Origin: a virus
IMG/VR virus record: IMGVR_UViG_3300030117_000172
Span: 1 to 25,575 of that record
Length of the DNA stretch: 25,575 nt
Reading direction: 5' to 3' (one strand)
This document shows positions 10,214 through 25,176 of this stretch, in pieces. The translations under genes and the position numbers were made by a program. Position 1 is the stretch's first letter; each line of letters begins with the position of its first letter. The notes beneath the pieces were generated by a model. That model was not told the origin of the DNA. It searched no databases and saw nothing but the letters and a program-made list of their open reading frames with translations.

Positions 10214-11365
10214 TTAACCTGAACTCTGTTTGATTACTATTGTTGATGAACTACCACCATTAACTTTTACTTCGTTTACTACTCCGTTTTGTTCTAGAAC
10301 AACCGTATAACTATTACCACTTTCTATATTTATAGCCGCATTTGCACCGACTGTTCTACGTAAACTAATCGTTTCTCCTGTTACTATCGTTGTAATTTGT
10401 GTTTTTGTGTCTTGACCAATATTTGTGCCTTTAATACTTGTAGACGTTGCTTCTTGGGCGAGTTGGTCATCTTCATCTATCTTATCAAGCTCGCTAATAA
10501 TATCTAACAGGTCTTCTAGAAAGTTTACGTTTAGTGCATCGTAATCTAGTTCGGTAAAGTCTAATCCTTCTTCGCCTAAATTTTCCTCTGCTAGATAGTC
10601 TATATCTAGCTCGTTGAAGTCCAGTATTGGATCTACGGTGTCCGTAGTTCCTTGTTCTTCGTCAAAGGATCTAGAGCGTTTGGGTGGCGTTACAATAAGC
10701 ATGTTGTCAATAAAATCTAAAGATAAGTCTAGAATCACAGGTTCGCTAGGAGCACTTTCAATAGTAGTTGTAGTAGTAGCTTGAAAAGCTTGATTTAAAA
10801 TTACGGTGCCCATATCAGTAGTTACCGATATTTCCCCTGATGGTGCTCCGTCTTGATTTGGTAATAATATAAATAAAGACTCTGAAGTATCTGGGTTTAC
10901 GGTCACACTAAAGTCTGTTCCTCGAATACCTACTGTTGCTGAATTAGTCCGCAACACCATGTTTTCTTTAGCAACTTTACCCGTTAGCCCTGTAGTAAAA
11001 CGTGCTGTACCTTTTAAAAAGTTGACAGCTAGTTTTGATTTAGATGGGTCAGGGTCAAAGACAAACTCATCTATGATAACCATTGAGTGTTCAGTAATCC
11101 TAATAGTTGTATCATCTACGAAACGTATACCCATACGACCAGCCTCGGTTTGTGCTTTGTCGTAGGATTGTACAACGAAGTCTTGAGTTACAGCAAAAGA
11201 CTCATCTCTTTCTATTTGTGCGAAGCCTGATACTTCTTCTACTGCTCCAACATCAACAACTTGTTGTGGTGCCTTGGTCGTTTTGGATAATGCAGAAAGT
11301 TCCATTTGAGCCGTTACTAATGACCCGTAACCAATCGTTATCCAAAGTAGAAGCTTGTGTAACAT
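10214..11365 (-). CDS. Secreted FecR-domain protein with curlin-like C-terminus, 383 aa
   Basis: The N-terminus MLHKLLLWITIGYGSLVTAQ is a clear Sec signal peptide. Residues about 45-155 form a FecR-type beta domain: GFAQIERDESFAVTQDF, FVDDTTIRI, FLKGTARFTTG and the hallmark RTNSATVGIRGTDFSV (139-154). Residues 235-305 are strongly acidic with repeated DFNELDIDYL / DFTELDYDAL units. The end (about 350-382) reads SYTVVLEQNGVVNEVKV and then STIVIKQSSG, matching the curlin consensus Q-x-G-x-x-N-x-x-x-V and a second partial unit. The gene begins inside the curlin-like gene (113-base overlap) and has only a weak ribosome site, so it may be translationally coupled. With CsgG and CsgF upstream, it is a likely substrate, anchor or nucleator for the curlin-like protein. 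FecR family membership is well supported; the curli role is inferred. Confidence 0.82.
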   Translation of the reverse strand: MLHKLLLWITIGYGSLVTAQMELSALSKTTKAPQQVVDVGAVEEVSGFAQIERDESFAVTQDFVVQSYDKAQTEAGRMGIRFVDDTTIRITEHSMVIIDEFVFDPDPSKSKLAVNFLKGTARFTTGLTGKVAKENMVLRTNSATVGIRGTDFSVTVNPDTSESLFILLPNQDGAPSGEISVTTDMGTVILNQAFQATTTTTIESAPSEPVILDLSLDFIDNMLIVTPPKRSRSFDEEQGTTDTVDPILDFNELDIDYLAEENLGEEGLDFTELDYDALNVNFLEDLLDIISELDKIDEDDQLAQEATSTSIKGTNIGQDTKTQITTIVTGETISLRRTVGANAAINIESGNSYTVVLEQNGVVNEVKVNGGSSSTIVIKQSSG

Positions 11366-11957
11366 TTAACGTTCTTGAACCACCTGTGTGATCTAAATAA
11401 AAATAGCCACCTTGGTAGCCATCCCCGTTATAGTTTATCGTATTATCAGACCCGTCTATATCCATGTAGTTAGTAGCTAAATCTACATCTATGTCTGAAT
11501 CTATGGTATTGTTAGACCCGTTTATAATCCAATCTAAATCTAGCGTAGATGCCATAGCATTCGTTCCTTGGTCTAACGACATATCGTTTGACGAACCTGT
11601 TACTTGTATATTAACGTTGCTTGAATCTGCTCCGTAAGTATTATTAGGATCTGTTTGTATGTCAAAAATATTAGAGTCTCCTGTAAACTCGAAGAAACCT
11701 GTATACGAATCAGCGTAAATATCACCTTTGAACAAGTTACTTGAACCTATTTGATTAATATCTAATGTCATCGTAACACCATCTAAATCTAGCGGCGTCA
11801 TGCTTCCAGCAGTAGCTGTGGCACCACCTATTAAGTTCCCTGAACCAAGTTGTTCTACATCAATGTTGATAGTATTACCTACTTGATCTATAGAAACTTC
11901 ATTATCAACCCCGTATAAGAAACCTACGAAGAAAAATAAATAAAGGTATTTAATCAT
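11253..11957 (-). CDS. Curlin-like secreted amyloid subunit candidate, 234 aa
   Basis: A short signal peptide (MIKYLYLFFFVGFLYG) leads into curlin-type repeats of the form I-x-Q-x-G-x-x-N: SIDQVGNTINIDVEQLGSGN (residues 22-41) and LDINQIGSSNLF (65-76). More degenerate units follow at roughly 92, 118, 147, 168 and 213, where the Gln is replaced by Asp, Asn, Phe or Thr but the G-S-x-N turn persists. The protein is Asp/Asn-rich and ends in a Cys-containing tail (FCIIQNDQGTTTSC). Curlin repeats stack as beta-turn-beta strands in curli amyloid (CsgA/CsgB). It overlaps the CsgG gene by 8 bases, so co-translation is expected. It is the likely export substrate. Whether it polymerises cannot be read from sequence; the acidic, Q-poor middle differs from CsgA. 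Confidence 0.8.
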   Translation of the reverse strand: MIKYLYLFFFVGFLYGVDNEVSIDQVGNTINIDVEQLGSGNLIGGATATAGSMTPLDLDGVTMTLDINQIGSSNLFKGDIYADSYTGFFEFTGDSNIFDIQTDPNNTYGADSSNVNIQVTGSSNDMSLDQGTNAMASTLDLDWIINGSNNTIDSDIDVDLATNYMDIDGSDNTINYNGDGYQGGYFYLDHTGGSRTLNVTQASTLDNDWLRVISNGSNGTFCIIQNDQGTTTSC

Positions 11958-12759
11958 CTTTGTAACTCCAATAGTCTTTCATTATACCTTTTTCAATCGT
12001 TTTTAATACTGCTGTTTCTATAGCTGTTTGTAAAGATAAAGTTATTGATTCATTTTCAACATTACCGTTTTCTATCTCAATCAATTCTGTATCATTTCGT
12101 ACAAATCTAAACACATCTTCGTTTATACCAACACTAAGAATTGTTTTTGTTGTAGTAACTTCTGTAAGTATGCGACCTGTTAAAACAGATACAGTTCTGA
12201 GACTTACGGTAACAGTATCTTGTCGATAGCTTCTACTCATACCTATACCTAAAACCCTGCCGCCTGTTCCCCCTGTTCGTATATTGCTTTCGTAACTTAA
12301 AACACCACCCTCTAATAAAATGCCTGCAAACATTAAAGGTTTTAGTTTTTGTACTTCTTCAAAACTTTCTCTAGTTGATCTTATAAGCTGTCTTTCTTTA
12401 CTTAAATTATCTAATCCTATACGTTCTACAACTTCAAAAAAGTTGCCTTGAGCTGTATTTTTTAATGCTTGTATTAGTAAATTATAGGGAGCTTGAGTTA
12501 CTGCGGTGCTAAAAGAAGCGTATTGACTATTACTTCTTCTTTGTCCTGTTTGATCTAAAAAAGACGTAGGGTAAACAGCCACTACAGGTTTTTTTACAGG
12601 TTGTTTTAGATTCCATAACTGTTCGTTTATTACTGAAGATACTTCAGCAAATCTAGTAATTTTAAAATTTTCTGTGGAGTATTCAGGTTCGAGTAATACG
12701 CAGCTAGAAAGTAAAACTATTAATAGGGAAAGTAATAGTAGTTGTTTCACCGTTTTCAT
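11950..12759 (-). CDS. csgG: CsgG-like curli export channel lipoprotein
   Basis: CsgG forms the nonameric outer-membrane channel that exports curli subunits. The N-terminus is a lipoprotein signal with lipobox LSSC (lipidated Cys20). The core matches CsgG throughout: VVAVYPTSFLDQTGQRR (59-75), SFSTAVTQAP (82-91), ALKNTAQGNFFEVVERIGLD (98-117), NLSKERQLIRSTRE, ILLEGGVLSYESNIRTGGTG, RVLGIGMSRSYRQDTVTVSL, TTTKTILSVG and the end block LQTAIETAVLKTIEKGI. Length (269 aa) is close to E. coli CsgG (277). The E. coli eyelet Phe56 aligns with Phe83, whereas Asn55 aligns with Ser82. Start is ATG 12759, or GTG 12750, which has slightly better ribosome-site spacing. The gene overlaps the end of csgF by 56 bases. 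Family assignment is very strong. Confidence 0.95.
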   Translation of the reverse strand: MKTVKQLLLLSLLIVLLSSCVLLEPEYSTENFKITRFAEVSSVINEQLWNLKQPVKKPVVAVYPTSFLDQTGQRRSNSQYASFSTAVTQAPYNLLIQALKNTAQGNFFEVVERIGLDNLSKERQLIRSTRESFEEVQKLKPLMFAGILLEGGVLSYESNIRTGGTGGRVLGIGMSRSYRQDTVTVSLRTVSVLTGRILTEVTTTKTILSVGINEDVFRFVRNDTELIEIENGNVENESITLSLQTAIETAVLKTIEKGIMKDYWSYKDD

Positions 12760-13195
12760 CCGTTACTGTAAGAATAATAAATCCACCGTCAACTTCGTAT
12801 TCTATTATATTCCCCTCTAACTCAATCGTTCCTGATTCTTGTGGTTGTTCTCCAAATAATTTTTCTACTAATTGTGAGCTAAGTTTTGCATAGACCCTTG
12901 ATTCAAGATTTCTAATAAATCTAGCAAGAGTAGTATTATCAGCTGCTCGTTTTGCATCATCTATAGCTGCTTGTTTATCATCTTTTATAGCTTGTTTTCT
13001 AGAAAATTGTTGATTTTCAATCGTTAAGTAATGTTGCGAAGTGTTCACACCTGAAAAACTTGGTGATTTAAATTTAAACACCATCTCATCTGTAAATACA
13101 AAATTAGAAAACAATAATAAACAGATAACTAATAGTGCAAAAAACACTATAGTTCTAAGTTGTCTTTTTTTGTATTCAATCCAACTTTTCATCAT
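12704..13195 (-). CDS. csgF: CsgF-like curli assembly factor
   Basis: In curli systems CsgF caps the CsgG pore and couples export to surface nucleation. After a basic N-terminus and a hydrophobic signal or anchor (TIVFFALLVICLLLFSNFVF, 15-34), the mature-like start VFKFKSPSFSGVNTSQHYL (39-57) matches the F-x-F-x-x-P-x-F-x-G segment with which E. coli CsgF enters CsgG. A helical middle (65-115) follows. The C-terminal beta part (GGFIILTVTDENGETTTITF) matches the CsgF end. It is adjacent to csgG, as in bacterial operons. The hydrophobic segment is long and the Asp/Glu after it gives no textbook signal peptidase site, so it may stay inner-membrane anchored. Tandem ATG codons at 13195 and 13192 follow GGAG. 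It overlaps the upstream membrane-protein gene by 20 bases. Confidence 0.88.
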   Translation of the reverse strand: MMKSWIEYKKRQLRTIVFFALLVICLLLFSNFVFTDEMVFKFKSPSFSGVNTSQHYLTIENQQFSRKQAIKDDKQAAIDDAKRAADNTTLARFIRNLESRVYAKLSSQLVEKLFGEQPQESGTIELEGNIIEYEVDGGFIILTVTDENGETTTITFPINSFTF

Positions 13196-14049: not shown

Positions 14050-14475
14050 CTATATTTCGTCTGGATTAAATATTCCTTCGTCAATAAGTTTTTGCCTATT
14101 AATCATATGTTGTTGCTCTACGTCAGTTTTACTTTGTCCGTAGTATTTAACAGCAAAACCACTATCTACCATGCCTTGATTTATATCTTCGCCGTCACAA
14201 ACCACAGTGCCTAATACTCTACCAAACTTACCTCTAGAGTCTTTTAACTCTGTTCTTATGACAACTTGTTCTGCTAATTCTATAGCTTTACTTAAAAAAG
14301 CAGAAGCAAGTTTACCTCTAGCTTTTTCGTCTTTATTTCTAGTTCTAGATTCAGGTGTATCTATGCCGTAAAGTCTTACTCTAGAACTATAAGAAACTGA
14401 AAACCCTAAATCGAGGATTACGTCTATCGTATCGCCGTCTACAACTCGTTCTACGGTACAAGCATATTCATACAT
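14050..14475 (-). CDS. Staphylococcal nuclease-type (thermonuclease) endonuclease, 141 aa
   Basis: SNase-fold enzymes hydrolyse DNA/RNA with Ca2+. The catalytic set is intact: Asp15 in VVDGDTIDVI (Asp21 of the Staphylococcus enzyme), Arg34, Asp39, Thr40 and Glu42 in RLYGIDTPE, and Arg86 in RGKFGRVLG (Arg87). No signal peptide is present, so it acts in the host cytoplasm or within virions, in contrast to the secreted bacterial form. The start is ATG 14475, which overlaps the stop of the zinc-ribbon gene as TGATG; an upstream TTG is less likely. Length matches a single SNase domain. It may serve host DNA degradation for nucleotide recycling. Confidence 0.9.
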   Translation of the reverse strand: MYEYACTVERVVDGDTIDVILDLGFSVSYSSRVRLYGIDTPESRTRNKDEKARGKLASAFLSKAIELAEQVVIRTELKDSRGKFGRVLGTVVCDGEDINQGMVDSGFAVKYYGQSKTDVEQQHMINRQKLIDEGIFNPDEI

Positions 14476-14636
14476 CAAATTACCTCATGTTTATTTATTG
14501 GACAAGTATTACCTTTTATAAAAACTTTAAGAGGCATAACACATTTACAAATACTACAAATCTTCATACTTTTATTATACTTATCACAATTATTACAAAT
14601 ATTTAATTTTCTATCTCTTTCAAGTTTAAGTTCCAT
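14475..14636 (-). CDS. Tiny zinc-ribbon protein (DUF6171-like), 53 aa
   Basis: This short gene fills the space between the thioredoxin-like gene and the nuclease exactly: ATG 14636 overlaps the upstream TAA (TAATG), and its TGA overlaps the nuclease ATG (TGATG). The product starts MELKLERDRKLNICNNCDKY and has six Cys: C14-x2-C17, C27-x2-C30-x-C32, and C45 followed by Pro. The C-x2-C ... C-x2-C-x-C ... CP arrangement resembles the small DUF6171 family of phage zinc-ribbon proteins. It probably binds one zinc ion. Function is unknown. The exact fit and Cys spacing make it a confident gene even though it is short. Confidence 0.82.
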   Translation of the reverse strand: MELKLERDRKLNICNNCDKYNKSMKICSICKCVMPLKVFIKGNTCPINKHEVI

Positions 14637-14992
14637 TACTCAACCATAGAACTCAACCATTTTTCTCCCTCGGTTAAACCAAGAAAACCTCTCACAAATT
14701 GCACAAAGGCGTCTATGTTCGAAGAATCCATAATACCAATACCCTCAACGACTCTATTTCTACCTTCAAAAAACACAACAGACGGTACGGTCGTAGGAGC
14801 AAAAAAAGGTGTTTCTTCTGTTACATGAACTTTGTACCACTTAATATCAGATATCGTAGAAAACGCATTTTTTAAAGTGCTTTCATTTGTGCTACAATCA
14901 GAACAATCTTTCATGGTTATATATACAGCATGTTTTTGACTTGGGTTAGCTGCTAATGTAGATTCTAAATCTGCAAGTTCTATTTCTGTCAT
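14636..14992 (-). CDS. Thioredoxin/glutaredoxin-like protein, 118 aa
   Basis: The preferred start is ATG 14992, which overlaps the previous stop as ATGA; an upstream GTG (15001) would add three residues. The thioredoxin fold is indicated by HAVYITMKDCSDCSTNES with a C30-S-D-C33 active site after a beta strand. A second strand follows (IKWYKVHVTEE), then the cis-proline loop TTVPSVVFFEGRNRVVEGIG (Pro70). The C-terminal helix is typical. The CSDC active site is unusual compared with CGPC or CPYC. It has no signal peptide, so it is cytoplasmic. It may supply reducing power to phage or host ribonucleotide reductase, or act as a redox modulator. Family is likely; substrate unknown. Confidence 0.8.
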   Translation of the reverse strand: MTEIELADLESTLAANPSQKHAVYITMKDCSDCSTNESTLKNAFSTISDIKWYKVHVTEETPFFAPTTVPSVVFFEGRNRVVEGIGIMDSSNIDAFVQFVRGFLGLTEGEKWLSSMVE

Positions 14993-15504
14993 GTCGTACA
15001 CTCTCTTACTGATATATTAGATACAAACGATCCAGGACAATAATATCCTAAATATTGATACGCCATCCATCCTGCATCTCCGTTGTGAACGCCTGTTTTG
15101 TAAACTTCATCGCTAGTTTGTACGTCTTTAGTATTAGTAACTCCATTATCGGTAAAACCACTTGGGCAACTAGGGGGTGTAGCGTAAGTAGCCGAAGGTG
15201 TACTTGGAGACCAACATGCAGAACCACTAGGTAGACCCATAGCTGCTGTATTACTGTAAAGAGTATCTGTTCCTTCAATACCCCACAAACCTGTTTCTAC
15301 GCTTATGTTACTAGCTCCGCTTATGTTGGTGTACATGCTTTCTTTCTCTGCGGTAGTGTTTTCAAATAAAGGCGAAGCTAATGAACTAGAGTTGGTTATT
15401 TTTATCCAACGACCTAATTCTGGTCTAGCGTTATCGCCAGAACCTGCTCCGTATCTTTTAGTAACCGAAGAATTACCGTTTACTTTAGTAGTTATTTCTG
15501 ACAT
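14989..15504 (-). CDS. Four-cysteine fibre-associated protein of unknown family, 171 aa
   Basis: ATG 15504 overlaps the S74 fibre gene by 13 bases, and its own stop overlaps the thioredoxin-like start as ATGA. The N-terminal half is Ser/Thr/Asn-rich beta sequence (ELGRWIKITNSSSLASPLFE). The C-terminal half carries Cys97, Cys113, Cys156 and Cys169 among aromatic and Pro/Gly residues, e.g. GDAGWMAYQYLGYYCPGSF. This looks like a compact disulfide- or metal-stabilised beta domain. Its position at the end of the fibre block suggests an adhesin tip or fibre accessory protein. No known family is recognised, and no signal peptide is present. Confidence 0.62.
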   Translation of the reverse strand: MSEITTKVNGNSSVTKRYGAGSGDNARPELGRWIKITNSSSLASPLFENTTAEKESMYTNISGASNISVETGLWGIEGTDTLYSNTAAMGLPSGSACWSPSTPSATYATPPSCPSGFTDNGVTNTKDVQTSDEVYKTGVHNGDAGWMAYQYLGYYCPGSFVSNISVRECTT

Positions 15505-16706
15505 TTTAGCTCTTCTATTTCTTTTTGTTGTTCTTTAATCGCTTCAACTAAAAGCCCTATCATGTGACCGTAATCCATAGTCTTGTGCTTGTCCTCTACT
15601 ACTAGTTCTGGCAGAACTTTTTCTACTTCATCAGCTACTAAACCAATATCTTTTCTGCCTGTATCTTTCCATTTATAACTAACACCTCTAAGTGCTTGTA
15701 CTTTTTCTAAAGGTTTTTCAATTGTTTGTATATCTTCCTTGAGTGCTGCATCTGATGAATAAAAGAAAGATGCAGAAGTGACGCTTGTGGTAACTGTAAC
15801 CGCATTAGGTAATCCAACGGTAACTGCTGCTGTTTCTGACCCAGAACCTGAAACTTCTATTTCATTAGTAGTTCCAGCAACTGTAGCTACATAATTTCCT
15901 GTTGTATCGGTACCTAAAGCTACTGAGTTAGCTTGAATAGTTGTAGCTCCATTAGAAGCTATAGCGACATCTCCTGACATAGCAACAGGGTTATAGTTTG
16001 TGCCATCAGCTACTAATATGTGTCCTGATGTATTAGTGCCCATAGTCAAGGCGTCATCTGAAATTGTTATATCTCCAGCGAAAGTAACATTTGAGTTTTC
16101 ATCTACAGATATAGCAGGTGTAGTCCCCACCGTTGAACCTTTTCCTATAACTAGGTCATCTGCTGAATCATCTAAACCTATATAAAAATCTTGAGCGTTA
16201 CCATCAAATAATATCTTAGCGTCTTCTGCATCGCCGTCGCCAATAGTTAAAGTAGGTGTACTGCCTCCCACTTGCAAACTATCTGTAACATGTAGGTCTG
16301 TAAATAAATCATAGACCGCTGCACTAGATCCACCACCATCAGTAGCGATAGCCTTAACTTGTCCAGCTAGTATAGAAACATTTGCACCTGAACCTTGAGA
16401 AAAAGTTAATGTATAACTCGTAGCGTTTTCTATTATCCAAACTTTAGATACAGTATTAGGAGCTAAAGTTACGGTACAGGCTTGTCCGCCCCCTGTGCAT
16501 TTTAAATAAAATGACCTAGCATCATCGGCTGTTGCATTTTGCATAGTGATTGTGGCTGTAGAAGCATTTGCTATGGCTTCTGAACCGTATTTAAAAGCGT
16601 CTGTAATAAGACTTAAATTAGTATTAGTTTGTGTGCCCCAAGTTCCTGGTTGGTCACCCGTAGCCATTTCCGCTAATCTTAAATTATTATCAAATGAACT
16701 TGCCAT
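15492..16706 (-). CDS. Tail fibre with S74 intramolecular chaperone domain, 404 aa
   Basis: ATG 16706 has a good ribosome site (AAAGAGGAAATT). The N-terminal domain, MASSFDNNLRLAEMATGDQP followed by GTWGTQTNTNLSLITDAF, is a virion-attachment module I recall from many marine phage fibres. A repetitive beta region follows (DDALTMGTNTSGHILVADGT and similar). From about residue 317 the peptidase S74 domain begins: SSDAALKEDIQTIEKPLEKV, YKWKDTGRKDIGLVADEVEK, ending in a coiled coil. S74 domains trimerise the fibre and then cut themselves off at the Ser. The usual Arg in S-D-x-R-L-K is Ala here, although the Ser318 and Lys needed for the Ser-Lys dyad remain. Confidence 0.88.
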   Translation of the reverse strand: MASSFDNNLRLAEMATGDQPGTWGTQTNTNLSLITDAFKYGSEAIANASTATITMQNATADDARSFYLKCTGGGQACTVTLAPNTVSKVWIIENATSYTLTFSQGSGANVSILAGQVKAIATDGGGSSAAVYDLFTDLHVTDSLQVGGSTPTLTIGDGDAEDAKILFDGNAQDFYIGLDDSADDLVIGKGSTVGTTPAISVDENSNVTFAGDITISDDALTMGTNTSGHILVADGTNYNPVAMSGDVAIASNGATTIQANSVALGTDTTGNYVATVAGTTNEIEVSGSGSETAAVTVGLPNAVTVTTSVTSASFFYSSDAALKEDIQTIEKPLEKVQALRGVSYKWKDTGRKDIGLVADEVEKVLPELVVEDKHKTMDYGHMIGLLVEAIKEQQKEIEELKCQK

Positions 16707-16741
16707 AATTTCCTCTTTTTAATTATATACCAATTATATCA

Positions 16742-17653
16742 TCATGCAGCTACTTCATCCCAATCAGGTGATTGTGAATCTGTAACGTCTGTCCAACTCG
16801 GTGATTGACTCGTACTTACTTCACTATAGTTAGCTGTTTGTGAATCATCTATTTCTATCCATAATTGTACTCCACCTAATGTGGTAGTTAATCCATACCC
16901 TGTAATACTTACACTAGCACCTGCAGTGGTTGTTACTGTGCCTAAAGCAGAAGTTGCTGTTTGTCCTGTAACAGTTGTCGCTGCATCAGCAGTTATGGTA
17001 GGAGTTCCTAAAGCAGAAGTTCCTGCTTGTCCTGTTACGCTTATATTAGCTTCAGCTACCGTAGATATTGAACCCAAACTAGAAGCAGTTTGGAATCCTG
17101 TTACCTCTACATTAGCGTCTGCGTCTACAACTACGGAAACCGAACCAACACTAGATACTAACGAAGGTAGGTTTACAACAGCTTGTGCATTAACACCAGG
17201 AGCAGAGAAACCACTCGTACCTACTTGACCTGTAGGAGTTACGTTAGCTTTTGCTATATTAGTTATAGTGCCTAAGGCAGCTGTAGCAGCTAATCCCGCT
17301 ACTCCAATATCGTTTCCAGCAACAATAGCAACTCCACCTAATGCTGACGTTGCTGATTGACCTGTAGGAGTTACGTTAGCTTCAGCGTCTGTAGTTACGC
17401 TTACCGAACCTACTGAACCTGAAAGACTTGGTAAAGTAGCAACTGCTTGTGCATTAACACCAACACCTGATACATTAGAGGTACCCGCTTGTCCGCTTGG
17501 GCTTACATTAGCGTCAGCATTTATTGTTATGTTGGATGCTGTTGTAGGATCTGCTGTTGAAGCAGTTGCAGCTAAACCTGATACACTAACTTGGACACTG
17601 ACTCCACCTAAGGAAGTAAACGGAGCTTCAGCAAAGGCGGTTATACCAAACAT
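16742..17653 (-). CDS. 22-residue-repeat fibre/adhesin protein, 303 aa
   Basis: ATG 17653 lies one base from the preceding stop. Most of the protein is built of beta repeats of about 22 residues with consensus A-x-V-x-V-T-G-Q-x-A-T-S-A-L-G, for example VTGQAGTSALG, VTGQTATSALG and VTPTGQSATSALG. Some pairs fuse to longer 44-residue units containing VNAQAVATLPSL. The last 35 residues hold three short copies of a D/S-S-Q-(T/S)-P-x-W-x-(E/D)-V motif. The sequence is Ala/Thr/Ser/Gly-rich with very few charged residues. Such proteins sit among fibre genes and probably form a shaft or decoration. Related repeats are found in the 23663-24505 protein. No known family is claimed. Confidence 0.75.
   Translation of the reverse strand: MFGITAFAEAPFTSLGGVSVQVSVSGLAATASTADPTTASNITINADANVSPSGQAGTSNVSGVGVNAQAVATLPSLSGSVGSVSVTTDAEANVTPTGQSATSALGGVAIVAGNDIGVAGLAATAALGTITNIAKANVTPTGQVGTSGFSAPGVNAQAVVNLPSLVSSVGSVSVVVDADANVEVTGFQTASSLGSISTVAEANISVTGQAGTSALGTPTITADAATTVTGQTATSALGTVTTTAGASVSITGYGLTTTLGGVQLWIEIDDSQTANYSEVSTSQSPSWTDVTDSQSPDWDEVAA
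16878..17480. repeat. In-gene tandem repeats (66-base unit, 132/264-base higher-order copies)
   Basis: The repeat protein gene contains DNA-level repeats. A 26-base block is identical at 17225-17250 and 17357-17382 (132 bases apart). An 18-base block GCTTGTGCATTAACACCA is identical at 17181-17198 and 17445-17462 (264 bases apart, twice 132). A GCAGAAGTT-centred block recurs near 16940-17030. The units equal 22 or 44 codons, so the array keeps frame and can expand or contract by recombination without destroying the gene. Confidence 0.75.
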
Positions 17654-17654
17654 G

Positions 17655-17885
17655 TTAGCTCTCCGCTATTTCGTTGATGGTTTTAGTTTCGGTTTCTTTT
17701 ATTTCTACAGACGCAGTAAGTTGTTGTTCAAAGACAGAGAGTGCTGCGGATAACACATCTACTTGTCGTATAAGATCTTGTTTCTTGACTCGTAGTTCTT
17801 GTATCTGACTTAACAAGTATTTTTGTTTATCGTTTAAATCGGCTACTTCGTAGTCTTGATCGTTTATGGTAATAGTATCTGTCAT
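17655..17885 (-). CDS. Small coiled-coil protein (DUF6447-like), 76 aa
   Basis: ATG 17885 overlaps the previous stop as TAATG. The product begins MTDTITINDQDYEVADLNDK. A short beta strand pair (ITINDQDYEV) is followed by a long helix with heptad-like spacing (LLSQIQELRVKKQDLIRQVD). The I-x-(I/V)-x-x-x-x-Y-x-x-x-D-L-(S/N)-x-x-x-K opening resembles the DUF6447 family, often found beside phage fibre genes. It could be a fibre-assembly chaperone or an attachment coiled coil. Function is not established. Confidence 0.68.
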   Translation of the reverse strand: MTDTITINDQDYEVADLNDKQKYLLSQIQELRVKKQDLIRQVDVLSAALSVFEQQLTASVEIKETETKTINEIAES

Positions 17886-18922
17886 TAACTACCCTCTAAA
17901 GTTGCTATCCTAGCTTCTGCTGCTTCTAGTTTAGTTTTTAATTCTTTAATTGCTTCAATAAAGAATGGAGTCAATCTTGAGTAATCCATAGTGTAATATT
18001 TATCATCCTCTTTTACGCCATCTACTACGTATTTAAAATTACCCTCTTCATCAGTAGCACCATCTTTATCTATAACATTATATAAAGGGTCAACCTCTAA
18101 TGTAGGCAACTCAGCATCTATTTCCATCATATTTTGTGCAGTTACTCCAAACTGTTTACCTGCTTTACCACCACCTCTATTAGCAGCATCCTTCCATTTA
18201 AAAGTTACGCCTTTCATTTTAGCTACTGAATCTAAAGCTCCTGTTATGGTAGTTATGTCTTCTTTTAATTTTTCGTCTGAATAAGTAGAAAAACCACCAT
18301 TAGCTTGACAAGCAACATTAAAATAAACTGTGCTTGGACCTGACTGTGCCATGAAGTGATGGTAGCCTGTATTTAAAGCTCCTATGTCAAATCTACCGTA
18401 GTCACTTGTGATGTGCAAAGCTGCATAATTACCCGAACTAGCACTTATTCTTAATCTTTCTGTACCATTATGTTCAAAAAGAAATACACCATCATTAGCA
18501 CACATAAGTTTCATACTATCGCCATCGCCACGAATATGAACTGTGTCGTTGCTTACTAGATTAGCTCCAGCACCACCACTTCCTAATTGTATTCTTGCGT
18601 CTGTGCCACCATTTAAAAATAAATCATTGCCATAAATTCTGAGTCTTTCTGTATCGGCAGTTTGGAATTTTATTGATTGAACTGACGCATCAAATACTTG
18701 TTTTTCGTCACCGTTACCTATTTCTAAATTACCAGATGTAATGTGTGCTATTTCTGTTACGTTTAATTTACCATCAGACGCTAAAGATAATCTATCAGTT
18801 CCACCGACTTTAAAATCTATTTGATCGTCAGTATCTGCTGTAATAGATGTATCACCGTCTGCATCTAAAACTAGTTCGCCACCGTTTATACTTAGTAATT
18901 CTACTGGTACTTTAGTTGTCAT
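17885..18922 (-). CDS. Tail fibre with S74 intramolecular chaperone domain, 345 aa
   Basis: ATG 18922 overlaps the stop of the small gene upstream (TAATG). A repetitive beta-rich shaft of GGTDRLSLASDGKLNV / HNGTERLRISASSGN type occupies residues 15-200, the kind of G-x-(E/D)-R-(L/M)-R-I unit common in marine fibres. The S74 domain starts at Ser215: YSDEKLKEDITTITGALDSV with Lys220, then VTFKWKDAANRGGG, QFGVTAQNMMEID and a C-terminal coiled coil (LKTKLEAAEARIATLEGS). The canonical Arg is Lys (S-D-E-K-L-K). The protein is expected to trimerise and release its C-terminal chaperone autocatalytically. Confidence 0.9.
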   Translation of the reverse strand: MTTKVPVELLSINGGELVLDADGDTSITADTDDQIDFKVGGTDRLSLASDGKLNVTEIAHITSGNLEIGNGDEKQVFDASVQSIKFQTADTERLRIYGNDLFLNGGTDARIQLGSGGAGANLVSNDTVHIRGDGDSMKLMCANDGVFLFEHNGTERLRISASSGNYAALHITSDYGRFDIGALNTGYHHFMAQSGPSTVYFNVACQANGGFSTYSDEKLKEDITTITGALDSVAKMKGVTFKWKDAANRGGGKAGKQFGVTAQNMMEIDAELPTLEVDPLYNVIDKDGATDEEGNFKYVVDGVKEDDKYYTMDYSRLTPFFIEAIKELKTKLEAAEARIATLEGS

Positions 18923-19134
18923 TAGTCAGCTTCCTCTATAGTTAGTGTTCCTGCATCAACTTGTCGCTTAACCTCATTATAAAATCTATTGCTCTCGTTG
19001 ATAGGTACGCTTCTTGTTAAATTAAAACTGTTACCATCTTTATCAAGTTCTTTTGTTACAACATTAATAGATACTGTTTCTCCAGAAATGACATCTTTAC
19101 AATATTTCGCTGAAACTATTTCTATTGATCCCAT
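18922..19134 (-). CDS. Small fibre-associated protein, 70 aa
   Basis: The open frame extends to 19185, but ATG 19134 is chosen because it overlaps the preceding stop as TAATG, like most junctions here. The product MGSIEIVSAKYCKDVISGET then shows beta strands (VSINVVTKELDKDG), a helical section with FYNEVKRQVDAGTLTIEEAD and an acidic end. The architecture (a short beta hairpin followed by a helix) suggests a small alpha/beta protein. Set between two fibre genes, it may be a fibre chaperone or connector. No family is recognised. Confidence 0.65.
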   Translation of the reverse strand: MGSIEIVSAKYCKDVISGETVSINVVTKELDKDGNSFNLTRSVPINESNRFYNEVKRQVDAGTLTIEEAD

Positions 19135-20246
19135 TATAACTCCGCATCTATTTCTAAAGTAACTCCACTTTGAAACCTTGACCAAGCTGCATAACCTTGA
19201 CCAAGAGTGTTTGTACCAAAAGTAAATTCTACTCCGTAAGAAGTTCTATCAGCAAAATCTGCTGTTGTAGTTGCGGAAGTTGATCCGCCTGCAAAAACAG
19301 TCAATCCTGTTGCAGAACTTAAAGTTAATGTTGGAGCTGGTCGTGTCTCTCCTCTAGGATAATAAAACATTCCGTAAAAAGCTGTCGTAGTCCACATTGA
19401 TCCTTGAAAAATACCTGCATCAGACGAGCCAGAAGCTAAATCTCCGTAAGCGTATTTTTGAAAATATCTATGGCAAAGTTTTTCTGTTTCTCCTCTTGAT
19501 AAAACTTCAAACTCTGTCGCAACATTACCAACTTCTAACTGAACTGCGGTTATAGCGAATGTATTACTCGTGCTAGACATAAAACTACTAATACCAGCAG
19601 CTCTGTTTGCTGCTGTTTGTGCAGCCCAAGCAGAACTATTAAGTGTTCCGCCTGTATAGTCGCTGCCTGCATGAAGCCATATAGCTACATTTAAACTAGC
19701 ATTTGTATCATTATCAAATGCTCCTGTGGTATCGGCAGGAAAAGTAAGCTCTACTTTTGACCATGATGAGGTTACTGAGAATGTTTTAGAAATTTGTCTG
19801 CCGTTATCGTTATCGTATAGTTCAACCACATAAGTAGCACTTCCGTTTCCTTTGACAAAAAAACTTACTGTAAATTCTTTTGCTCCACTCGTGCCTTTTT
19901 TAAACTGTTGTAAATTCACTCCTTCTATTTGTTGCACTAAAATAAAATATTCACCTGCTCCTATAGAAGTATCGGCTGTTGTGCAGGTCAACTTTAAACT
20001 TTTTGTGGTGTTACTTTCAGTAGGAGCATCATCAACAACAGCATTCATTGTAACTCTGCCTGAGTTGTTGCCGCCCATATCTAGTTTCCATCTGTCCGCA
20101 GTATAGTAAGTACTTGCATTTGCTCCAATGTTTGTTATCTCACCAGCTCTATGTGCCACACGAAAATCTCCATTAATTAAAATGTTTCGTCTGCCGAAAG
20201 CTCCCGTGTTTTCAACCATACTTGTATCTACTTTAGTTAATGCCAT
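19134..20246 (-). CDS. Fibre protein with carbohydrate-binding-like jelly-roll, 370 aa
   Basis: ATG 20246 overlaps the preceding stop (TAATG). The N-terminus MALTKVDTSMVENTGAFGRR leads into NILINGDFRVAHRAG, a signature of marine phage fibre proteins whose following approximately 200 residues resemble CBM4/9-like jelly-rolls: ADRWKLDM, EYFILVQQIEGVNLQQF, FTVSFFVKGNGSATYVVELY and FAITAVQLEVGNVATEFEVL. The ending QLEVG-x-x-A-T-x-F-E is typical, and SRGETEKLCHRYFQKYAYGD follows. The last 90 residues form another beta region. A glycan-binding receptor-recognition function is inferred. No catalytic motif is visible and there is no S74 domain. Confidence 0.82.
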   Translation of the reverse strand: MALTKVDTSMVENTGAFGRRNILINGDFRVAHRAGEITNIGANASTYYTADRWKLDMGGNNSGRVTMNAVVDDAPTESNTTKSLKLTCTTADTSIGAGEYFILVQQIEGVNLQQFKKGTSGAKEFTVSFFVKGNGSATYVVELYDNDNGRQISKTFSVTSSWSKVELTFPADTTGAFDNDTNASLNVAIWLHAGSDYTGGTLNSSAWAAQTAANRAAGISSFMSSTSNTFAITAVQLEVGNVATEFEVLSRGETEKLCHRYFQKYAYGDLASGSSDAGIFQGSMWTTTAFYGMFYYPRGETRPAPTLTLSSATGLTVFAGGSTSATTTADFADRTSYGVEFTFGTNTLGQGYAAWSRFQSGVTLEIDAEL

Positions 20247-22282
20247 TAGCTACCCTCTAAGGTTTCAATTCTTGTTTTTAAGTCTTCTATAATAACTTGT
20301 TGTTCTTGTGTAGCTTTTATTAAAACATCTATTAATCTTTCTTTAGCAAGGTATTTATAAGGATTATCAGGGTCATCTTCTGGAGCAACAACCCCATCTC
20401 CTGATTTATCTGCATTTGTAACAATTGCAACAGGATAAACTGATTCTAATTCTTGTGCTATGTAACCTATAACTTTTGTTTTATTTACATCTCTCTTCCA
20501 ATTAAACTCTCTTTGTTTAATGTTTTTTAAAGTATTGATACCTTCTAAAGTAGAATCAACTATATTCTCTTTTAATCTTTCATCAGATGCTTGGTTAATT
20601 TCTACTGTGCCGTTATTATGGTAAATATAGCCTTGTGCATGACCATTTCCATCATCAAATCGAAGCCAGAATTGTCCCGTTGTTGCATCATCATCACCTG
20701 TTACTATTCTTATACCATACCTATCATTATCATTTCCATCGTGGTAAAAAAGAGATAAGTACGATCCAGCATCGTTACCGAAAACATATAATTTTTCACC
20801 TGAACCTTGGATTCCAATACTGACCTGACCGTTTGTGCCTATACGCATCCTTTCCGTATCTTCTGTTAAAAAAGCCATGTATGAGTTAGACCTTTTGCTG
20901 GCAAACTGAACTTGGTTGGCATCATAATACCAATAAGCTATTTCCGTTCCGCTTGCCTCTCCTGATAAAAAGTAGCCTGACGTTGATGTTTGATTTACGA
21001 CAAATTTTTTAGCTGTTGTGCTTGATAAACCAACATTTCCCGAATTATCTAAGTATAAAACATCTGTAACATTTGAAGCACCACTGCTTCCACCACCATC
21101 TGCATAATTAAAATATAAACCGCTCCCTTGTGCTACCGCAAACCAATCTTTACTTTGACCTGTATCACTCCATGCTATAGCAGGCGAACCAGAATCCTCA
21201 ATAACTAATGTTTTTTGAGAGTTTGCATAGCTAGTTGGTGACGAAGTTCCGATACCAACTATTCCTCCATCATCAATAATCATGCGTTCAGTTCCGCCTG
21301 TATCAAACCTTATCTTGTCTTCGTCAGAACTTTCTTCGACCATGACTTTAGTATCGCCATCAGCGTCTAATAATTGTGTAGCCGTATTGATTGTGGTCTG
21401 TGTAGCGACTATGGCTTCTACCTTAGTGTTGTTAGGCGGAGCTTCAGAGAAAGTAAGTGTTGTGCCTGATACACTAAAAGTATCTTTATTTTGATAAGTA
21501 CCGTCTATATAAACTTGAACATTGTTTTCGTTGACAGGATCAGTATTAAGCGTCAGCGTGGTATCGCTGCCGTCTCCTGTCATAGTGGATAAAGTATAGT
21601 TCGATCCTGATACACCAGCTTTGACAGAATAAACAGTTATAACCCTACCGTTAGCAGGAGCTGTTGCAAAAGTTAGTGTCGTACCAGATACTGAATAGAC
21701 GTTTTGTGCTTGAAACACACCGTCTATAAATACTAATAAATCGTTTTCGTTATCTATAGTTTGAGAAAGCGTGAAGGTTGTGTCTGAACCATCGCCTGCA
21801 AAAATGTTAGTGAAGAAAGAGTTTGACGATCCAAAAGAACCCCAAGCAGAACCTAGATAGCCCTCAAACCTACCTGTTGTTGTGTTGTAACGAAAGTCCC
21901 CCGCAGCAGGTGAGCTTGCTCTTTGTGCAGTTGTTCCTGTAGGCACGTTAAGAGCTGTATCTACTTCTCTTATCGTTTTGCCTGCAGGCAAAGTACAAAA
22001 TACATCTTTTGTGCCTGCACTAAAATCAACAGCACTGTCGCTATTAGAGCTAGAAAGAATAGTCGTTCTAGATAAAGTATCGGGGGAAGCATCAGTGACT
22101 GTACCAATACCTACTTCAAACTCTGTTGTGCCTCTACCAGCAATACAGTAATAAGTAACATTACTGTTGCCTACCCCAGCAACAAAAGTTTCAAAACCTG
22201 TAGCGGCACCAGCAAGATTAATCGTGCCTGTGCCTGTGGTTGTTGTTGTTTCCTTTACTCTGTCGTTAAGGACGAAAGCCAC
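20246..22282 (-). CDS. Large tail fibre with S74 intramolecular chaperone, 678 aa
   Basis: The start is GTG 22282, preceded by a very strong AAGGAGGAGG site. The N-terminal 100 residues (FVLNDRVKETTTTTGTGTIN, then AGAATGFETFVAGVG and SPDTLSRTTILSSSN) are the common virion-attachment domain of marine phage fibres. Two copies of a DGSDTTFTLS...DNENDLLVFIDG / DGSDTTLTLN...NVQVYIDG beta module occupy about residues 165-300. A shaft with GGTERMIIDDGG units follows. The S74 domain begins at Ser566 (SDERLKENI, Lys571) and includes FNWKRDVNKTKVIGYIAQEL and a C-terminal coiled coil ending TRIETLEGS. This is the canonical S74 motif, so self-cleavage is expected. It is the longest fibre here and a likely main fibre. 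Confidence 0.92.
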   Translation of the reverse strand: MAFVLNDRVKETTTTTGTGTINLAGAATGFETFVAGVGNSNVTYYCIAGRGTTEFEVGIGTVTDASPDTLSRTTILSSSNSDSAVDFSAGTKDVFCTLPAGKTIREVDTALNVPTGTTAQRASSPAAGDFRYNTTTGRFEGYLGSAWGSFGSSNSFFTNIFAGDGSDTTFTLSQTIDNENDLLVFIDGVFQAQNVYSVSGTTLTFATAPANGRVITVYSVKAGVSGSNYTLSTMTGDGSDTTLTLNTDPVNENNVQVYIDGTYQNKDTFSVSGTTLTFSEAPPNNTKVEAIVATQTTINTATQLLDADGDTKVMVEESSDEDKIRFDTGGTERMIIDDGGIVGIGTSSPTSYANSQKTLVIEDSGSPAIAWSDTGQSKDWFAVAQGSGLYFNYADGGGSSGASNVTDVLYLDNSGNVGLSSTTAKKFVVNQTSTSGYFLSGEASGTEIAYWYYDANQVQFASKRSNSYMAFLTEDTERMRIGTNGQVSIGIQGSGEKLYVFGNDAGSYLSLFYHDGNDNDRYGIRIVTGDDDATTGQFWLRFDDGNGHAQGYIYHNNGTVEINQASDERLKENIVDSTLEGINTLKNIKQREFNWKRDVNKTKVIGYIAQELESVYPVAIVTNADKSGDGVVAPEDDPDNPYKYLAKERLIDVLIKATQEQQVIIEDLKTRIETLEGS

Positions 22283-22725: not shown

Positions 22726-23016
22726 TTAAAGCTCCTTAATAATTTTTGCTAAGTTTTCGTGACCTTGATTATTTAACATATTAGACATTGTGCATCGATC
22801 ACTCTTAATAGCTTCTTGTATATAATACAGCACGGTATTATAAATCGCTACTTTAAATGCTTCCGCTTGTTGCCTAACATGTCCTTCTGCGTTTTCTGAT
22901 ATACCGCATATTCTATCTGTAAGTCTTTCCGCCCAAAACTCTGGCGTTTGACCTCTATCTGTTTGTGTTTCTACCCCTATATTACCTAAAGAGCTAACTA
23001 CGTCTATCTCTATCAT
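22726..23016 (-). CDS. Conserved small helical phage protein, 96 aa
   Basis: ATG 23016 overlaps the adaptor-like gene stop as TAATG. The product is mostly helical: RGQTPEFWAERLTDRICGIS, VRQQAEAFKVAIYNTVLYYI, then MLNNQGHENLAKIIKEL. The pattern of TPE-x-W-A-x-R-x-x-D-x-I, R-x-Q-A-x-A-F and Y-I-x-x-A-I is one I recall from many marine podovirus and siphovirus genomes, next to head-tail joining genes. Function is unknown; it may be a head-tail assembly or scaffold helper. Confidence 0.7.
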   Translation of the reverse strand: MIEIDVVSSLGNIGVETQTDRGQTPEFWAERLTDRICGISENAEGHVRQQAEAFKVAIYNTVLYYIQEAIKSDRCTMSNMLNNQGHENLAKIIKEL

Positions 23017-23666
23017 TATCCTGTTGGTCTCCTAAGATTGTCGTACCTAGCTTCATCTTTTACGTTTTTAGACTCTCCTAAAACTTTTAACGAAGCTAAA
23101 GCATCTTGAAATCTTTGTTCGTACATCATTATTTGTTCTGCACTTTCTTTCATAAAAGTTGCACCCTCAACTAAAGAACCATATAACAATGCATTAGAAG
23201 CGTTAGTAGATAACCAAGTAGTTCCTGAATCACCGCCTGCTGTTAAAGAAGTAGGTCGATAATAGTAATGTAACTCGAAAGTGTAATTACTATTAGGCGT
23301 AGGAGCTAATATAAACGTATCTTCGTCAAACTGTGCATAAAACAAAGGTGTACCCGTTGTTGCAGCGGCAGGTGTATAGTCTCTAATCCAAGATACGTGC
23401 TTAAATAATAAATAGCTGTAATTACTACTGCTATCTAGAACCGCTAAGCTAAACGGTGCTAAAAAGTCAGACGGAGTGCTTAAATAAGTTGTTCCTGATG
23501 TTGCTGTACCTGTAGAGTTTTTTCTAAAAACAGGTAACTGTACTGCTTTTAAAATACGTTCTTCGGCACTTTTAATAAATGTATCTATAGTATTAACGAA
23601 AGTAGTTTCGTCATTTTCTAAGTAATTCTGTACTGCTGTTTTTAATTCTGATTTAGTAAAACTCAT
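23016..23666 (-). CDS. Head-tail adaptor protein (SU10-adaptor/tail-tube-A type), 216 aa
   Basis: The frame is open to 23708, but ATG 23666 overlapping the upstream stop (ATGA) is preferred, giving MSFTKSELKTAVQNYLENDE. The next block, TFVNTIDTFIKSAEERILKA, with TTYLSTPSDFLAPFSLAVLD and LHYYYRPTSLTAGGDSGTTW, matches the pattern of phage adaptor proteins (I-D-x-F-I-x-x-A-E-x-R-I then L-P/S-x-D-F-L). These sit as a ring below the portal. The C-terminal helices (EGATFMKESAEQIMMYEQRF) also fit. A GGGAGG site lies 15 bases upstream, somewhat distant. The identification is by pattern, not by search. Confidence 0.78.
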   Translation of the reverse strand: MSFTKSELKTAVQNYLENDETTFVNTIDTFIKSAEERILKAVQLPVFRKNSTGTATSGTTYLSTPSDFLAPFSLAVLDSSSNYSYLLFKHVSWIRDYTPAAATTGTPLFYAQFDEDTFILAPTPNSNYTFELHYYYRPTSLTAGGDSGTTWLSTNASNALLYGSLVEGATFMKESAEQIMMYEQRFQDALASLKVLGESKNVKDEARYDNLRRPTG

Positions 23667-24505
23667 GGTGTGTTCGCCGTGCCTCCCATTCCAGAGTGAA
23701 TAGTACAATAATAATATAGCGTTGGTGCTCCAGAAGCTACCGTAATCTGTGTATATGCCCCTGAGCTTCCTGGTGTTCCATTCGTAGTTACTCCTGTAGT
23801 ATATTCTGAACCACCGCCGTGTGTACCGTTTGCCGTAGTAGAAAATCTAAGTGGATGTCCGCTATTAGAACTATCTGATTGATCAAATCTGTAAGTGCTG
23901 CCTTCTGATAAATTTACTGTCGGACTAACCGATCCATCTAAATAGTATTTATTACCGCTTCCATAAGAGTTAGTTCCAGAGGCAACAGTAACGGTGTAAG
24001 ACGTTATTGATGATGTTGTAATCGTTGGTGTTCCTAACGAAGCTGTAGCAGATTGTCCTGTAAGTGTAGGAGAATCTGAGGCACCTGTTATAGTTATAGT
24101 CCCTAATGCGGCTGTTGCAGATTGTCCTGATAATGAAAAAGTATCTGTAGTAACAGATACCGTGCCTACAGCAGATTTAATTTGTTTTAAAAAGAAAGAA
24201 GAACCTATAGGATCGTTATTTAAAGTGCCGTTTAGAGCTATACCTGTCTTACCGTCTACGCCCACAGGATTAGAAGTAAATACTCTACCTGTCTCTGTAG
24301 TTGGTGCTGGTTGGTTAGGTCTTGGTTTAAATAAAGCTTCTGCATCGGCAGTAGCAACGACAGGGTCTAGTTGCGGATGTTTAGAGTCGAAACACTCATC
24401 ACATACACGACTGTGACTCCAAGTAAATCTTGTATCTGTATAATCGTAAGCAAAGCCACAAATATCGCATATAGCCTTTGCGTATTTACCAGTGGCATAA
24501 GGCAT
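23663..24505 (-). CDS. Virion protein with N-terminal Zn-finger and C-terminal cupredoxin-like domain, 280 aa
   Basis: ATG 24505 overlaps the upstream stop (TAATG). Residues 1-45 hold a four-Cys zinc ribbon: C13-x2-C16 (ICDICGFAYDY) and C35-x2-C38 (VCDECFDSK). Residues 110-165 contain two copies of the LSGQSATAALG / LTGQSATASLG repeat that also builds the 16742-17653 protein. Residues 168-278 look like a cupredoxin: YTVTVASGTNSYG, a hydrophobic strand with TVNLSEGSTYRFDQ, SGHPLRFST with His217, and YYYCTIHSGMGG with Cys267, His270 and Met273. That supplies all four type-1 copper ligands with amicyanin-like C-x2-H-x2-M spacing. It lies between two adaptor-like genes, so it is probably a virion protein. 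Copper binding is inferred. Confidence 0.8.
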   Translation of the reverse strand: MPYATGKYAKAICDICGFAYDYTDTRFTWSHSRVCDECFDSKHPQLDPVVATADAEALFKPRPNQPAPTTETGRVFTSNPVGVDGKTGIALNGTLNNDPIGSSFFLKQIKSAVGTVSVTTDTFSLSGQSATAALGTITITGASDSPTLTGQSATASLGTPTITTSSITSYTVTVASGTNSYGSGNKYYLDGSVSPTVNLSEGSTYRFDQSDSSNSGHPLRFSTTANGTHGGGSEYTTGVTTNGTPGSSGAYTQITVASGAPTLYYYCTIHSGMGGTANTP

Positions 24506-25176
24506 TAAATATACTCCTTCTTAGGTACAAATTTAGCTGTTGATCTATCTTCGTCGTAACGTAAAGCGTTATTTAAATCTCTGTTGTATAAAGGCTCAAT
24601 TACAGGTATTTTTTGTGCATTCTTTTTTACACATAAATAATAAGCCAACCCTGATACTAAACAAGGTATAAATCTACTAGGTATGTCTATATCTTGTATA
24701 GAAGCGTCAGCGTCTTGTATTCTTCGCCAAGAATAGTAAACGAGTTTGTCAGTCGAGTTCTCTGGTGTGGGATAAAGATGAATAACAGGTGTTATTTTTC
24801 TTTCTAACCAAAGTTCTGTTGGTCTGCCCTTACTGCTTTTATTAGGGATAGTAACGTATTCATTACGATCAATCCTATCTAATTCATAGTCTGTAGTAAC
24901 ACTATTTACTGTTCTTTGTATGTATGCGTCTAGAATATCTATGTCATAATCATAAATAGTGTATTCATTTGTGCCTTCAGTAAGAGTTTGTTCAACTTTT
25001 ACTACCTCCCACATCTGAATACCTCTGTTAGACCAATCAGCAAACATTATGTTTAAAGAACGTCTAGCAGTTACAGCATCATAGGAAGTACGAGCCTCCA
25101 AACCTGCAAGCTCGTATGCTTCCTCTATAGCGGTAGCTACATCTAAACTAAATGTACGAGTACCCGATGTTGCCAT
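24505..25176 (-). CDS. Head-tail connector/adaptor-like protein (P22 gp4-like), 223 aa
   Basis: ATG 25176 is one base from the preceding stop. The first 50 residues, including VATAIEEAYELAGLEARTSY, AVTARRSLNIMFADWSNRGI and QMWEV, match the helical A-x-x-x-x-G-x-x-x-x-x-x-x-x-x-x-A-x-x-x-L-x-x-x-x-x-x-W-x-x-x-G-I pattern of P22 gp4-type accessory factors. Beta strands follow (EYTIYDYDIDILDAYIQRTV) with LWLERKITPVIHLYPTPENS and a C-terminal helix with PCLVSGLAYYLCVKKNA. It precedes a second adaptor-like gene, so one may bind the portal and the other the nozzle. Structural role is likely; the exact equivalence is inferred. Confidence 0.74.
   Translation of the reverse strand: MATSGTRTFSLDVATAIEEAYELAGLEARTSYDAVTARRSLNIMFADWSNRGIQMWEVVKVEQTLTEGTNEYTIYDYDIDILDAYIQRTVNSVTTDYELDRIDRNEYVTIPNKSSKGRPTELWLERKITPVIHLYPTPENSTDKLVYYSWRRIQDADASIQDIDIPSRFIPCLVSGLAYYLCVKKNAQKIPVIEPLYNRDLNNALRYDEDRSTAKFVPKKEYI

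Follow-up and report, generated by a model that had tools for sequence, protein, structure and literature searches.

A predicted cupredoxin domain with a conserved type-1 ligand set as a candidate surface-display module of marine tailed-phage virion proteins

Introduction

The question raised by this locus is why a protein encoded close to the predicted head–tail joint of a phage should end in a domain that resembles the blue copper proteins. The original prediction for this 280-residue protein described a zinc ribbon, adhesin repeats, and a cupredoxin-like domain with complete type-1 copper ligands. The window, that is, the whole stretch of DNA analysed here, comes from a virus, measures 25,575 bases, and encodes a single cupredoxin copy. 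No link between cupredoxins and phage tails was found in the open-access literature, to which the search was confined. The fold and the ligand set are already known, and what is new, as judged from the open-access literature searched, is their widespread use as a virion module.

The predicted neck protein and its neighbors

The open reading frame and its translation place the 280-amino-acid neck/tail protein at 23663..24505 on the minus strand, with a consensus Shine–Dalgarno sequence, AAGGAG, at 24514..24519 of the same strand. From the N- to the C-terminus, the protein comprises a zinc-ribbon-like module, a low-confidence linker, two beta-repeats, and the cupredoxin; the full-length model has a pLDDT of 72 overall, approximately 88 for residues 11–40 and approximately 90 for most of the cupredoxin. 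No secretion signal was seen in this protein.

Two members of the SU10_adaptor family flank the gene on the minus strand: adaptor A upstream (24505..25176; Pfam PF24175, E 3e-10) and adaptor B downstream (23016..23666; PF24175, E 4e-29), the latter with its likely start ATG at 23666, where it shares an overlapping ATGA with the stop codon of the 280-residue reading frame. The order adaptor A, cupredoxin protein, adaptor B is that of the family: of 82 loci inspected, 69 have an adaptor gene on each side. The position near the head–tail joint proposed earlier is consistent with these SU10-type genes on either side, in the window as in 69 relatives. Some relatives are annotated as “virion structural protein”. 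Gene order thus points to the protein being a virion part at the portal–adaptor neck.

The conserved N-terminal module corresponds to PHROG 28581 (24311..24505, minus strand) and includes a C2-C2 zinc-ribbon-like site at residues 11–40 (24386..24475, minus strand), composed of two CxxC knuckles, C13xxC16 and C35xxC38. Sequence searches returned no solved relative of this module, which is found between the adaptors without a cupredoxin in the freshwater phage DSL-LC04. The predicted zinc ribbon does exist in the window protein, but it is an optional feature, as its cysteine quartet is kept in only 15 of 48 full-length relatives. The replacements are of recurring types, namely, SSGE, CSGQ, and CTGV, and a function centered on the zinc ribbon was rejected because the site is gone in two thirds of the relatives.

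Between the linker and the cupredoxin lie two short beta-repeats (SLSGQSATAALGT / TLTGQSATASLGT; residues about 113–165; 24011..24169, minus strand). As to the supposed adhesin repeats, the two short repeat copies are real and are shared with a 303-residue protein, but they match no adhesin family. That 303-amino-acid protein (16742-17653, minus strand) is built largely from the stalk beta-repeat of the cupredoxin protein, and the other two within-record matches are repeats in it.

Predicted fold of the C-terminal domain

The cupredoxin domain spans residues 166–280, about the last 116 residues (23666..24010, minus strand), and was delimited from AlphaFold2, fold matches, and relatives. The model of the last 119 residues, made with 62 relatives from viral contigs, reached a pLDDT of 96.2 and a pTM of 0.89. 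In a Foldseek search of the PDB, copper proteins made up 49 of the 50 matches listed, including three-domain copper nitrite reductase, rusticyanin, CueO, laccases, and ascorbate oxidase; the exception was a prothrombinase complex. The best VIA-align match was the N-terminal cupredoxin of nitrite reductase (Z 9.6, 2.4 Å over 97 residues), and rusticyanin was aligned with Z 8.3 and 3.3 Å over 105 residues. Since Z-scores of 8–10 are moderate, the evidence for the fold comes from the uniform Foldseek list together with the ligand alignment. The Greek-key beta-sandwich that defines the cupredoxin superfamily is seen in the predicted model and in the top rows of both structural searches. Structure prediction therefore bears out the earlier claim of a cupredoxin-like domain.

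By sequence, cupredoxins were reached only with profiles. A PDB search with the single protein gave no useful match. With a profile of diverse members, Prochlorothrix plastocyanin (1b3i) ranked first with all four ligands aligned, at an E-value of 0.013, which is insufficient alone, as antibody chains with YYC were also among the weak matches. A second family profile matched pseudoazurin, with the Cys-His-Met part aligned, and copper nitrite reductases. The profile sequence searches found no solved phage structure related to the domain. Under the Pfam and NCBIfam thresholds, no cupredoxin domain is called; Pfam PF00127 (Copper-bind) falls below its gathering cut-off (best E 0.01, in five of 63 members; best score shown 15.4 bits vs. 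21.2), so the domain is not placed in that family. PF25489 (At5g54830-like domain) was matched weakly but repeatedly, by 19 of the 63 members and with E 2.6e-5 at best; the matches involve the gp9-type domains of loci L103, L153, and L171 and may indicate a eukaryotic relative.

The N-terminal cupredoxin of the Hyphomicrobium denitrificans three-domain copper nitrite reductase (2dv6, 6tfo), the best fold match, belongs to an enzyme, whereas the window domain has neither an enzyme nor a type-2 copper partner. Rusticyanin, plastocyanin, and amicyanin resemble the window domain in predicted fold and in the His…Cys-x2-His-x2-Met set, but they are soluble electron carriers, while the window domain is part of a virion protein and is approximately 15% identical to them.

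Ligands and their conservation

The four ligands named in the original prediction were confirmed from the codons, all on the minus strand: His217 (23855..23857), the first type-1 ligand; Cys267 (23705..23707), the thiolate ligand; His270 (23696..23698), the second histidine; and Met273 (23687..23689), the axial ligand. The last three have the spacing C-x2-H-x2-M, which is the ligand spacing of amicyanin. The domain thus contains the type-1 motif, a His where one strand starts and, in the final loop, Cys-x(2-4)-His-x(2-4)-Met. Predicted secondary structure and profile alignment put His217 at the start of the strand that bears the first His ligand of plastocyanin and assign all four ligands to canonical positions, with His217, Cys267, and His270 each aligned with their plastocyanin counterparts.

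In the 63-row alignment, the only invariant columns are Cys267 and His270, with His217, Pro218, and Met273 nearly so; in a deeper 17-row set, nine columns are invariant, the four ligands among them. On a tree of 136 rows, the ligand columns require 5, 5, 6, and 10 changes, where the median column requires 31, and rank 3, 5, 9, and 13 of 109 for fewest changes. The four ligands are kept across very distant phages and marine cells, as the conservation check proposed with the original prediction was to establish. Chance resemblance is excluded by conservation over hundreds of genomes, and such conservation of the site argues that the metal matters.

Among 326 distinct domain copies, 269 have the His-Cys-His-Met (HCHM) set. 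The others are mostly the second of two copies in gp10-like baseplate proteins of cyanophages; in these second copies the first His is replaced, and many of them are clipped by the end of the locus. Two such gp10-like proteins (L090:5508-5921 and L094:5984-6397) have two cupredoxin copies each, the first with the ligands and the second without. Gln in place of the axial Met (CxxHxxQ), as in the stellacyanin type, was observed in one phage copy (L161:3492-3929) and one SAR86 copy (L282).

Distribution and placement of the domain

Relatives of the domain were identified in 355 phage records, all 355 of which are marine by the names of the records, and in at least 594 stretches of viral contigs. 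In the neck cassette, it takes three placements: as a C-terminal extension in the window, as an insert in a loop of adaptor B (loci L074 and L076), and as a fusion at the N-terminus of adaptor A in phage 023Pt_psg01. In marine T4-like cyanophages, it terminates gp9, the baseplate connector for the long tail fibers (approximately 300 records); the gp9 N-terminus (PF07880) is present in 287 records and a gp9-type cupredoxin in 330. It is also found in T7-like cyanophages and in tail fibers of Pelagibacter phages (pelagiphages) and Methylophilales phages. The profiles of PHROG 30742, 27200, 693, 677, and 708, tail fiber and baseplate families of marine phages, contain the domain, yet they are annotated as tail fiber, baseplate, or unknown and never as copper or cupredoxin.

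Cellular genomes encode the domain in SAR86 proteins (one of them lipoprotein-like), in very large proteins of Bacteroidetes and Flavobacteriaceae, in a SAR116 RTX-type protein, and in a collagen-repeat protein of a Marine Group II archaeon, although some of the contigs concerned may themselves be viral. These surface-type copies mostly retain the ligands. On sequence grounds, the domain is a mobile surface module.

Possible function

Since the domain moves between neighboring virion proteins, ends connectors and fibers, and recurs on cell surfaces, it is best regarded as a display or adhesion module. The explanation that we hold to be slightly better than even, taken as a whole, is that the protein ends in a genuine cupredoxin whose predicted type-1 metal site (His-Cys-His-Met) is intact and which, jointly with this, acts as a mobile surface-display module on the virions of marine tailed phages. 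It draws on the sequence, the predicted fold, the alignment and conservation of the ligands, the mobility of the module, and the kinds of protein that carry it (neck, baseplate connector, fibers, and cell-surface proteins). In the window protein, a flexible stalk bearing the repeats would hold the cupredoxin off an N-terminal module anchored at the portal–adaptor neck. By tying the beginning of the strand with the first His to the C-terminal Cys-His-Met loop, the metal would make the head rigid and stable, with one ligand histidine at its exposed end. The exposed end of a cupredoxin is where the second His ligand is located, so that edge could touch a surface.

That a metal is bound in the virion at all is likely. 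Cys-His2 sites also take zinc if made in a cytoplasm; the bound metal would probably be mainly copper, acquired during assembly or after release. There is a slight preference for a head that serves adhesion or docking at the host surface rather than soluble electron transfer, and redox work without a partner seems less likely. A bolder version, in which many marine tailed phages show copper-loaded cupredoxins on the neck, baseplate, and fibers and the copper joins in infection (with the exposed ligand-His edge docking to a metal-uptake receptor or a surface group of the host, or with a Cu(II)/Cu(I) change as a contact trigger), is regarded as unlikely.

The same beta-sandwich might instead be a spacer or decoration stabilized by a purely structural metal, zinc or copper, with no recognition or redox role. 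Ig-like decoration domains are likewise mobile beta-sandwich modules, found on many tailed-phage structural proteins, and to our knowledge they carry no conserved metal site. The three placements in the neck cassette are what generic decoration would give, the fold persists where all four ligands are gone, and the sequence shows no other need for the metal. Against this stands the strictness with which the ligands are kept, beyond most core positions, as a mere stabilizer is usually easily replaced. Of 48 full-length relatives, a set that contains the window protein, 47 have all four copper ligands and 15 all four zinc cysteines; whatever its function, the copper-type site is far more tightly constrained than the zinc site of these proteins. 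A structural role alone is thus considered rather doubtful.

A redox or copper-delivery role, in the form of electron shuttling, detoxification of oxidants, delivery of copper to the host, or exploitation of a host receptor for copper uptake, as a copper version of the iron “Trojan horse” proposed for phage tails, is judged quite improbable. It would suit the complete type-1 ligand set with its plastocyanin-like alignment and the marine names of every matching phage record. It would also have a precedent: HxH sites that bind iron, in T4 gp37 and in marine phage fibers, have been published, as has the Trojan Horse hypothesis (PMC11705849). Those sites are located on the tails of tailed phages, marine ones included, but they have another fold, paired-His ligands, and iron, with no homology to the cupredoxin domain. 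However, neither a partner protein nor an electron route is evident, and the module is present on cell-surface proteins too, which suits adhesion at least equally. The hosts, moreover, span cyanobacteria, SAR11, and Methylophilales, for which we know of no common copper receptor.

The surface-display explanation also has to accommodate the copies that have lost the site, which could be taken as a sign that a blue copper protein was the ancestor of the domain and that its present use, metal-free, is only that of an Ig-like sandwich. Degenerate copies occur in several lineages, the site being lost in gp10-like second copies, in the first copies of Flavobacteriaceae, and in S-ShM2, while locus L079 replaced two ligands together (H217D and M273L). 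On the tree, His217 and Cys267 show approximately four changes each, in the same direction in most pairings, and these independent events are too few for significance as co-loss. The existence of degenerate copies indicates that the fold can work without metal. However, among copies below 80% identity with the loop covered, 124 of 134 have HCHM, two have HCHQ, and six lack the Cys; four ligands kept in 124 diverse sequences, from phages to bacteria and archaea, are unlike a vestige, which makes this reading very improbable.

Marine phages do possess another cupredoxin, the plastocyanin encoded by petE, one of the metabolic genes of cyanophages (PMC3037559). It is a separate soluble photosynthesis gene, whereas the window domain is built into virion proteins. 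A stray petE copy was rejected because cell-surface proteins, and phages whose hosts are not photosynthetic, have the domain as well.

If the display modules are metal-loaded, cyanophages, pelagiphages, and other ocean viruses that are very common would bear centers of the blue-copper type on the outside of their virions, and apparently nobody has asked about copper in such particles. A family labeled “tail fibre” or “unknown” becomes concretely testable with standard Synechococcus laboratory phages, and the debate on whether phages carry metals in seawater, so far limited to iron, gains copper. Were the copper loading and the role in infection both true, virions would be a copper-binding colloid in seawater.

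Other genes in the window

A curli-like cassette lies at 10214-13195 on the minus strand, in which a CsgG secretion channel (Pfam PF03783, E 3e-48) and a FecR-domain protein were identified; a curlin-like repeat protein (11253-11957) and a small protein that could be CsgF/CsgE-like (12704-13195) were recognized by eye. Three fibre-like proteins with a terminal S74-type chaperone motif, detected by Pfam in one and by eye in two, are encoded at 15492-22282 on the minus strand. The gene at 14050-14478, also on the minus strand, encodes a protein of the staphylococcal nuclease type (PF00565, E 1.5e-15), and beside it lies a small CxxC protein (14636-15001) that is thioredoxin-like by eye.
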